Source of the DNA: Pseudomonas putida
GTDB taxonomy: Bacteria; Pseudomonadota; Gammaproteobacteria; Pseudomonadales; Pseudomonadaceae
Direction: 5' to 3'
Length of the DNA stretch: 64,000 bases
Assembly (NCBI RefSeq): GCF_016406145.1
Contig: NZ_CP066306.1
Coordinates: 5,622,501-5,686,500, forward strand
Shown here: one piece after another, positions 53,630-55,156 of the stretch
How positions within the stretch are numbered: the first letter of the stretch is position 1
Layout of the letters: every line of letters starts with the position of its first letter
Notes under the pieces: model-generated
The model's database searches: none
Seen by the model: only the letters and a program-made list of their open reading frames with translations
What the model was told of the DNA's origin: nothing
Position numbers and translations under genes: made by a program

Positions 53630-55156
53630 CTACCTCCAGGCCTTGCGCAAGCGCATCAACGCCTCAGCAATCTCTCCCTCTGGCACTGCCGCAAACCCAA
53701 GCACCAACCCCGCGCGTTTATCCACAGGCACTTCGCTGTCCTCAAGCCAGTAACTGCTAAGCGGATTCACCTCCACACCCACCGCTTCGGCCTTGGCTAT
53801 CAAGTCCTGCTCGCGTGCAAAGTTATCCACATCGACTTTCACATGCAGCCCAGCTGCCACATCCGGCATCCCCGCCAGCCCAGAAACATCCACAGGCCAC
53901 CCGGCCTTCAGCACATTACGCCGGCTCAGCGCCGCACGGCGCATGCGGCGTATATGCCTCTGAAAATGCCCCTGGGCCATGAACTCGGCCATCACGCACT
54001 GGGTTCCCACCTCGGAATGCCGCACTGCCAGCGCCCTGCCCTGGCTGAAAGCCTGCACCAACCGCGCCGGCAGTACCAAGTAGCCAAGGCGCAGCGCTGG
54101 GAAAGCGATCTTGCCAAAGGTACCGACGTACAGCACCCGCCCTTGCCGGTCCAAAGCCGCCAACGGCGCCAGCGGTGCTCCGTTGTAACGGTACTCACCG
54201 TCATAGTCATCTTCGATGATCCAGCCATCCTGGCGCTCGGCCCAGGCCAGCAACGCCAAGCGCCGGGCCAGGCTCATGGTCACCCCAGTCGGGTACTGAT
54301 GCGCTGGGGTGACGTAAACCAAGCGACAGTCGCCAGCGAGTGCAAGCCTGGTGCAGTCGAGGCCTTCTTCATCTACCGGCACACCCCTCACCCGCCCGCC
54401 CGCTACTGCAAACGCGTGCCCGGCAGCACGATACCCGGGATTTTCCACAGCCACCTCATCCCCGGGCTGCAACAACAACTGTGCACAAAGGCTAATTGCC
54501 TCCTGCGCACCACTGGTGATCACAATTTGTCCAGCCGTGCACGACATACCCCTCGACCGACGTAGATACGCAGCGATCAATTCACGCAGTAACGGCTCGC
54601 CCGCCGGGTCGCCATAGCCAAGGTGCGCTGGATCGGGATTTCGCCAGAAGCCCGCTTGCAGCTTGGCCCAGACCTCAAAGGGGAACAGATCGAAGGCTGG
54701 AACACCTACCCGAAATGCCCGTGGCGGGCCAACTTTTGGGGATGGCAGATGGTTACTTTTCAGACGCTCCAAACGCTCACTGGAACGCCCACATCTGGAT
54801 AAATCATCAGTGCTTTCTGAGCATTTTGTGGATAACCCTGTTGATAAGCCATGGGATAACCCTGTGGACAGTTGTGTGGATAGTTTCGGCAGATGGCAAA
54901 CATAAGTGCCATCTCCTACCCGGCTTTCTATGTAGCCTTCGGCATACAGTTGGTCATAGGCACGCACCACGCTGTTGCGCGAGAGCCCGAGCATACCCGC
55001 CAAGTCTCGTGTCGCCGGCAGGCGCGTGCCGCTGCTCAAGCGCCCATCCAGCACGCGAGCGCGCAGCGCTTGATAGAGCTGTTGACTCAGCCCTCGGCGC
55101 TGGTCGAGGACGATCCCGGCGGGATCGAATGGCAATACCAAAGGGCGCTCGCTCAT
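53630..55156 (-). CDS. MocR-family (GntR-aminotransferase) transcriptional regulator
   Basis: A 508-aa regulator. An N-terminal GntR winged helix (about 20-88; LPATRDLAGMLGLSRNSVVRAYDQL) is joined to a type I aminotransferase-like domain (about 145-508) with the PLP lysine K349 in GTFGKIAFPALRLG and D316 in IIEDDYDGEYRYNG. Such proteins sense PLP-linked metabolites. The linker is odd: residues 91-112 are a tandem four-residue repeat (LSTQ LSTG LSHG LSTG LSTK). Its DNA is a 12-bp array of DnaA-box-like words. The gene is divergent from paiB, and the short gap holds ATTGG/CCAAT inverted words. Effector and targets are unknown. Confidence 0.9.
   Translation of the reverse strand: MSERPLVLPFDPAGIVLDQRRGLSQQLYQALRARVLDGRLSSGTRLPATRDLAGMLGLSRNSVVRAYDQLYAEGYIESRVGDGTYVCHLPKLSTQLSTGLSHGLSTGLSTKCSESTDDLSRCGRSSERLERLKSNHLPSPKVGPPRAFRVGVPAFDLFPFEVWAKLQAGFWRNPDPAHLGYGDPAGEPLLRELIAAYLRRSRGMSCTAGQIVITSGAQEAISLCAQLLLQPGDEVAVENPGYRAAGHAFAVAGGRVRGVPVDEEGLDCTRLALAGDCRLVYVTPAHQYPTGVTMSLARRLALLAWAERQDGWIIEDDYDGEYRYNGAPLAPLAALDRQGRVLYVGTFGKIAFPALRLGYLVLPARLVQAFSQGRALAVRHSEVGTQCVMAEFMAQGHFQRHIRRMRRAALSRRNVLKAGWPVDVSGLAGMPDVAAGLHVKVDVDNFAREQDLIAKAEAVGVEVNPLSSYWLEDSEVPVDKRAGLVLGFAAVPEGEIAEALMRLRKAWR
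53718..53726 (+). other. DnaA-box-like 9-mer inside mocR
   Basis: Perfect TTATCCACA on the plus strand, inside the coding sequence near the C-terminus of the MocR protein. Confidence 0.5.
53823..53831 (+). other. DnaA-box-like 9-mer inside mocR
   Basis: A second perfect TTATCCACA on the plus strand, exactly 105 bp from the first. Confidence 0.5.
54827..54886 (-). repeat. Tandem 12-bp array of DnaA-box-like sequences in the mocR linker
   Basis: Five boxes start at 54827, 54839, 54851, 54863 and 54875, exactly 12 bp apart and all in one orientation. Read on the minus strand they are TTATCCACA (perfect), TTATCAACA, TTATCCCAT, CTGTCCACA and CTATCCACA. They encode the LST(G/Q) repeat of the protein. 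Spacing and orientation are seen directly; DnaA binding is an inference. Confidence 0.6.

Follow-up and report, generated by a model that had tools for sequence, protein, structure and literature searches.

A conserved row of DnaA-box-like words within the mocR gene of Pseudomonas: a candidate DnaA assembly site near the replication origin

The window, i.e., the whole stretch of 64,000 nucleotides analyzed here, corresponds to C1:5622501-5686500 of genome G000. Because dnaA starts at base 401 of contig C1 (5,774,421 bp), the mocR gene carried by the window is located approximately 98 kb from dnaA. The mocR product is a MocR-type regulator with a GntR domain and an aminotransferase class I/II domain. 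In the linker between the two domains, five words resembling TTATCCACA follow each other in exact 12-bp steps and in one direction (b1 to b5; Table 1). The words are in frame and encode Leu-Ser-Thr.

Table 1. Features of the mocR locus, with positions counted from the first nucleotide of the window.
Feature	Sequence	Position	Strand	Remark
mocR, host gene		53630..55156	minus	508 aa; GntR and aminotransferase domain, from domain assignment
b1	CTATCCACA	54875..54883	minus	1 mismatch to TTATCCACA
b2, weak box	CTGTCCACA	54863..54871	minus	2 mismatches to TTATCCACA
b3, degenerate word	TTATCCCAT	54851..54859	minus	3 mismatches to TTATCCACA
b4, weak box	TTATCAACA	54839..54847	minus	1 mismatch to TTATCCACA
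b5, strong anchor	TTATCCACA	54827..54835	minus	0 mismatches
Near-box outside the 12-bp register	TTATCCAGA	54794..54802	minus	Absent from the initial annotation
Block A	TGGGCCAAGCTG	54659..54670	minus	Codon scan
Block B	GGACAAATTGTGATCACC	54515..54532	minus	Codon scan; matches the loose Fis consensus
Block C	AGCCTTTGTGCACAG	54479..54493	minus	Codon scan; includes TTGTGCACA
Near-box opposed to the row	TTTTCCACA	54441	plus	Absent from the initial annotation
Perfect box, judged outside the element	TTATCCACA	53823..53831	plus	Perfect in 21/116 array genes
Perfect box, judged outside the element	TTATCCACA	53718..53726	plus	Perfect in 29/116 array genes

An initial annotation of the window had described five words in 12-bp steps and one orientation, one of them perfect (54827), and had placed them in the linker as a Leu-Ser-Thr repeat. 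All of this was confirmed, but the one to two mismatches given for the imperfect words did not hold for 54851 (TTATCCCAT), which has three. The two perfect boxes at 53718 and 53823 that were described along with the array are present on the plus strand, but were ruled out as parts of it, since each is perfect in just a minority of the array genes. Tandem Repeats Finder detected only 1.9 copies on the array.

The window contains 20 words with at most one mismatch to TTATCCACA versus 6.0 expected, a number reached in none of 100 shuffles. When the linker codons were redrawn from local usage with the protein kept fixed, none of 20,000 redraws reached the observed four words with at most one mismatch. 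A count of TTATCCACA across the genome, as had been proposed initially, gave 115 copies versus 12 for the reversed word. For 112 copies a position on C1 was assigned, for 100 from the listed hits and for 12 by a scan confined to C1 without its last 421 bases, and 38 of these were found no more than 100 kb from oriC. When boxes up to 5 kb from the origin were set aside, 97 of the remaining 105 with an assigned position were located within 1 Mb of it, where 35% would be expected. A box excess was also seen in three relatives. The density of TTATCCACA on C1 was observed to drop sharply approximately 1 Mb from the origin, from 30-190 per Mb inside this distance to 5 per Mb at 1-1.5 Mb and about 1 per Mb beyond. 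The oriC region of the same genome contains TTATCCACA, TTATCAACA, and TTGTCCACA. As TTATCCACA is enriched around the origin, box counts alone are weak evidence there, and the three perfect boxes per 1.5 kb, first taken to be far above the ~0.01 expected by chance, are less remarkable than claimed. The strong evidence for the array is its conservation rather than the number of words.

The mocR gene was searched for in 149 genomes of the same genus with a match threshold of E 1e-100 and was matched in 141, leaving eight without a match at this threshold. Three matches were not scored, one for an internal stop (L219) and two for being partial (L210 and L221). The array was found in 116 of the 138 scoreable genes and was lacking in 22. 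Two array genes (L179 and L190), for which the linker pattern did not work, were assigned by visual inspection. The array is an all-or-none trait: 114 linkers have three to six words with at most one mismatch and 22 have no near-box at all, while none was scored with one or two. Linkers span 62-96 residues in 114 array genes and 42-47 residues in 21 of the 22 no-array genes. The remaining one, L147 (genome G129), has no array despite a linker of 61 residues, and L026, from a collection of named loci, likewise combines a 61-residue linker with no boxes. This collection overlaps partly with the 149 genomes; it holds 56 named loci, and 54 were counted after L053 and L055 had been set aside (rows after L056 are outside the count). 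Forty-five of the 54 carry the array, e.g., records titled P. putida, P. fluorescens, P. fulva, P. fragi, P. lundensis, and P. syringae. Those without it are L026 and eight short-linker records, e.g., P. alcaligenes, P. marincola, and Stutzerimonas stutzeri. A Pseudomonas-like mocR with the array is also present in L005 (85% identity; record titled Pantoea sp.) and L010 (77% identity; record titled MAG Paucimonas sp.), both of which may be mistitled. Absence from close relatives had been named as an observation that would speak against a functional array, and the 116 of 138 same-genus genes do not bear this out.

By parsimony on the gene tree the array state requires three changes, and the array genes do not form a single clade under midpoint rooting. 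The two long-linker losers, L147 and L026, are not nearest neighbors in this tree; just two such losses are known, and their independence is perhaps doubtful. The losers G129 and G149 were searched for an array that had moved elsewhere, and each gave two box pairs with at most one mismatch, none of them in mocR. Box pairs at the pitch of the array and with up to three mismatches were found 13 times in the window's genome versus once for the reversed pattern, the best being the mocR pair and a pair at C1:95827 with one mismatch each. Pitch-matched pairs fell in mocR in all six array genomes searched, and in none of seven genomes with an array-less mocR and three without mocR (0 to 4 pairs per genome).

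The codons of b5 are close to invariant in the 116 array genes, with TTA in 114, TCC in 116, and ACA in 116, whereas these codons make up 2.3%, 12%, and 8.3% of the Leu, Ser, and Thr codons elsewhere in mocR. Synonymous changes were counted on a tree built from the rest of mocR (tree length 23.9). They numbered 0 at S93, 3 at T94, 1 at S97, 0 at T98, 1 at L108, 0 at S109, and 0 at T110, compared to means outside the array of 22 for Ser, 29 for Thr, and 30 for Leu. Three or fewer synonymous changes were seen in 13 of 19 columns in the array and in 4 of 421 columns outside the element (F10, E133, S325, and G348). Within the array L92, the first codon of b1, and V96 were free to change (27 and 14 changes, respectively). 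The excess conservation of box bases at synonymous sites that the initial annotation had proposed to look for is therefore present, the synonymous sites of the array being almost frozen.

The words are also retained where the protein changes. The residue preceding Ser-Thr in b2 varies (V, L, P, or I) and the word stays box-like. The b4 residues read LPT, LST, LSP, or FST, and the word has exactly one mismatch, at various positions, in 108 of the 116 genes and is perfect in three. Box b5 is perfect in 114 genes and b1 has no or one mismatch in 107, while b2 has one mismatch in 81, two in 35 and is never perfect, and b3 has at least two in 103. On the tree the word changed once for b5, compared to 33, 42, 46, and 24 times for b1, b2, b3, and b4, respectively. 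A further perfect TTATCCACA, b6, a second strong box in most relatives, is found 46 bp past b5 in 88 of 116 genes and lies in another reading frame (K-V-I-H-S). Its valine codon is GTT in 91 of 93 cases, GTT accounting for 6.3% of the valines elsewhere. The b6 box is gone in 22 of 116 genes, the window's gene among these. The number of codons from b5 to b6 is fixed in 114 of 116 genes although the intervening codons are hypervariable. It is near certain that the letters of the array are under selection at the level of DNA. From a nearly invariant b5, a b2 that is never perfect, and a b4 that rarely is, we infer selection for a strong anchor with weak neighbors.

A scan of 445 codon columns exposed three more blocks, termed A, B, and C, which were found post hoc. 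TGGGCCAAGC of block A occurs in 97 of 116 array genes and in 1 of 23 no-array genes (the 22 scored genes and L026). The corresponding numbers are 103 of 116 and 0 of 23 for CAAATnGTGATCAC of block B and 115 of 116 and 0 of 23 for CTTTGTGCACA of block C. The same residues are encoded by ordinary, varied codons in 21 no-array genes. Both long-linker losers lack blocks B and C, and L147 retains A. From block C, CTTTGTGCACAG is found exactly once in the window's genome, and TTGTGCACA differs from a box by two nucleotides. Block B fits GnnYAnnnnnTRnnC, given as the Fis consensus in passages of PMC4245941, in 116 of 116 genes; this pattern is loose, with a second match elsewhere in the window's element. 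The window's genome encodes a frame of 115 residues with a Fis-type HTH_8 domain. Since the blocks, approximately 300 bp downstream, are frozen only together with the array, array and blocks look like one element of about 405 bp (54479-54883). The element lies within the intact mocR frame and is thus coding, with its candidate sites ~270-680 bp into the gene and away from the gene start.

Distances to dnaA were obtained from the 109 of 141 genomes in which mocR and dnaA are on one contig. For 95 array genomes the median was 90.7 kb. The distance was 49-175 kb in 93 of these, i.e., less than 200 kb and origin-near as in datA, and the exceptions were G094 at 275 kb and G029 at 1.34 Mb. A distance was available for twelve no-array genomes. 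It exceeded 1 Mb in G041 (1.37 Mb) and G129 (2.11 Mb) and ranged from 64 to 126 kb in the other ten. In the genome of L026, mocR is on contig C7, 703-748 kb from the contig ends, and dnaA is on C1; because they are on separate contigs, this mocR is at least 0.70 Mb from dnaA. Both long-linker losers are thus far from dnaA compared to 2 of 95 keepers (Fisher p 0.0013), which suggests, from two cases, that the array is needed only near the origin. Origin-near genes can do without it, as seen in ten of the twelve no-array genes whose distance is known; 21 of the 22 no-array genes belong to the short-linker class, which is array-free even near the origin.

Other clusters of DnaA boxes were observed outside mocR. 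One of these was seen in the window's own genome (L240, C1:5139500-5142500) and in three relatives (L241 in G129, L242 in G108, and L243 in G132). It is located ~0.53-0.70 Mb from dnaA next to a gene for a short-chain dehydrogenase, apparently in intergenic DNA. Its spacing is approximately 207, 12, 156, and 103 bp, with the pair TTAACCACAGACTTATCCACA in the three relatives and the related pair TTTTGCACAGAGTTATCCACA in the window's genome. This cluster is a candidate for a datA or DARS locus of Pseudomonas. A 1.9-kb segment ~76 kb from the origin (L225, C1:5697904-5699757) contains six perfect TTATCCACA, which fall in the reading frames of two CobW-type proteins and one DUF1826 protein. On the opposite side, ~96 kb from the origin, four perfect boxes are located at and in a dprA-like gene (L223, C1:95827-97186), starting with the pair TTACCCACAAACTTATCCACA just ahead of the frame. 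In G041, G138, and G014 (L231, L232, and L234), which lack either the mocR array or mocR itself, TTATCCACA and TTATGCACA are separated by 176-177 bp, and a near-box is found 12 bp from TTATCCACA; this is perhaps another conserved DnaA cluster. The no-array genome G008 has two pairs CTATCCACAGGCTTATCCACA outside frames of at least 110 aa (L236 and L237), one of them ~35 kb from dnaA.

For sites outside the origin that tune initiation by binding DnaA, E. coli provides the best-known examples, and these are non-coding. The conserved b5 carries the word TTATCCACA, which passages of PMC4285127 give as the high-affinity DnaA box of P. putida, and DnaA is very probably the reader of the conserved letters. 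We consider it somewhat probable that the element of ~405 bp in mocR (54479-54883) is a DnaA assembly site with a datA-like damping role. DnaA would nucleate on the strong box b5, and ATP-DnaA would spread cooperatively and head-to-tail over the weak boxes. According to passages of PMC4285127, weak boxes in E. coli oriC are filled mostly by ATP-DnaA while strong boxes nucleate. The element would be duplicated early after initiation, and the doubled site could then sequester ATP-DnaA or speed up its hydrolysis, which would damp re-initiation in the manner of the E. coli datA locus. Block B could recruit an architectural protein, e.g., Fis.

More tentatively, a replication-control element may have been built into the MocR linker as a cooperative site for ATP-DnaA, with ~20 extra residues serving the DNA, weak boxes held at intermediate strength to sense the ATP-DnaA level, blocks 300 bp away recruiting a partner, and the whole kept only near the origin; we regard this fuller model as possible. 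The titrating or timing locus hidden in coding DNA that was proposed initially is partly supported, as it withstood the synonymous-site and presence checks but loses the boxes at 53718 and 53823. If the proposal is right, a conserved DnaA site outside the origin resides in an open reading frame, so replication control can hide in genes, unseen by annotation, and the needs of DNA can shape a protein linker. Synonymous recoding would erase the element and leave the protein unchanged, which makes for a clean test. Among the literature matches listed, none concerned a DnaA site in mocR or a datA or DARS locus of Pseudomonas ('datA' also matches 'data'), and none was a DnaA ChIP-seq data set for P. 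aeruginosa. As no datA or DARS of the genus was among these matches, the element would raise the question of how Pseudomonas times replication.

The array could instead be a dense item in an origin-centered field of boxes that soaks up DnaA without forming any special complex. Such titration would account for the concentration of boxes around the origin (97 of 105 less than 1 Mb away) and the excess in the three relatives, and PMC12371093 reports that origin-near boxes titrate DnaA on the E. coli chromosome. Titration alone, however, requires neither a 12-bp pitch, nor weak boxes that are kept weak, nor frozen blocks 300 bp away, and the other boxes in mocR are not conserved; we regard this explanation as unlikely. 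Less likely again is that oligomers of DnaA-ADP on the element release ADP, raise ATP-DnaA, and promote initiation as at DARS. Several boxes and a distal Fis-like block recall DARS2 (passages of PMC4245941 and PMC5742627), and the Fis consensus at block B is present throughout the array genes, but this consensus is loose and matches elsewhere in the element too. In DARS cores, as described in passages of PMC5742627, box I is opposed to boxes II and III, and the loci are intergenic and located between oriC and the terminus. The mocR row is one-way and origin-near, and the lone opposed near-box at 54441 has at most one mismatch in just 37 of 116 array genes.

DnaA is also a transcription factor. 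With a host gene that is itself a regulator, DnaA or another protein on the element might regulate mocR or a neighbor, as a road-block or a repressor, and play no part in timing. We find this improbable, since the sites are well inside mocR rather than at the gene start and the box word is that of the origin. It is very improbable that the element acts at the RNA level or is read by some protein besides DnaA: the letters would be conserved whichever factor reads them and blocks A and B are unlike DnaA boxes, but the array words match the words of the origin. An RNA element was rejected, as no Rfam family was found on the element and its folding was ordinary, no better than that of shuffles (z 0.39). 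A coding micro-repeat that merely resembles DnaA boxes, the alternative put forward in the initial annotation, fits the in-frame period of 12 in an inter-domain linker, but is practically eliminated by fixed rare codons, synonymous change near zero where the usual rate would be expected, residue changes that keep the word, an out-of-frame box, co-conserved blocks, and the codon redraws.

Clusters of DnaA boxes outside the origin that repress untimely initiation are named for Bacillus subtilis and Streptomyces coelicolor in passages of PMC5742627, and in this respect the element in mocR would resemble them. The origin-centered density of boxes is similar to that of E. coli, where boxes are enriched at the origin and titrate DnaA there; the passages of PMC12371093 that describe this cover one Salmonella in addition to strains of E. 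coli and are concerned with box density, not with a conserved element in coding DNA. With DARS1 and DARS2 the element shares the presence of several boxes, and with DARS2 also a distal block that is Fis-like, but its row lacks the opposed box of the DARS core. The likeness to datA is closer. It consists of a box cluster outside oriC, with one direction for b1-b5 and b6 and an origin-near position, and passages of PMC5742627 describe datA as origin-near with essential boxes that share one direction. On the other hand, datA, like DARS, is described as non-coding (passages of PMC12371093) and needs an IHF site between its boxes, whereas the element in mocR is coding, has a 12-bp row, and is much nearer the origin. 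The IHF consensus was found perfect in 0 of 116 array genes and with at most one mismatch in 58, compared to ~31 in letter shuffles, and 36 of these matches are at b5 itself; an IHF site is not convincing. Being coding and without a convincing IHF site, the element is not filed as datA despite the shared direction and place. With the low-affinity arrays of oriC it shares weak boxes in a row that are anchored by strong ones, an arrangement that favors ATP-DnaA in E. coli (passages of PMC4285127), although the mocR array is not at dnaA and is within a gene. By analogy, the element in mocR would work most like a DnaA assembly site of the datA or oriC type.
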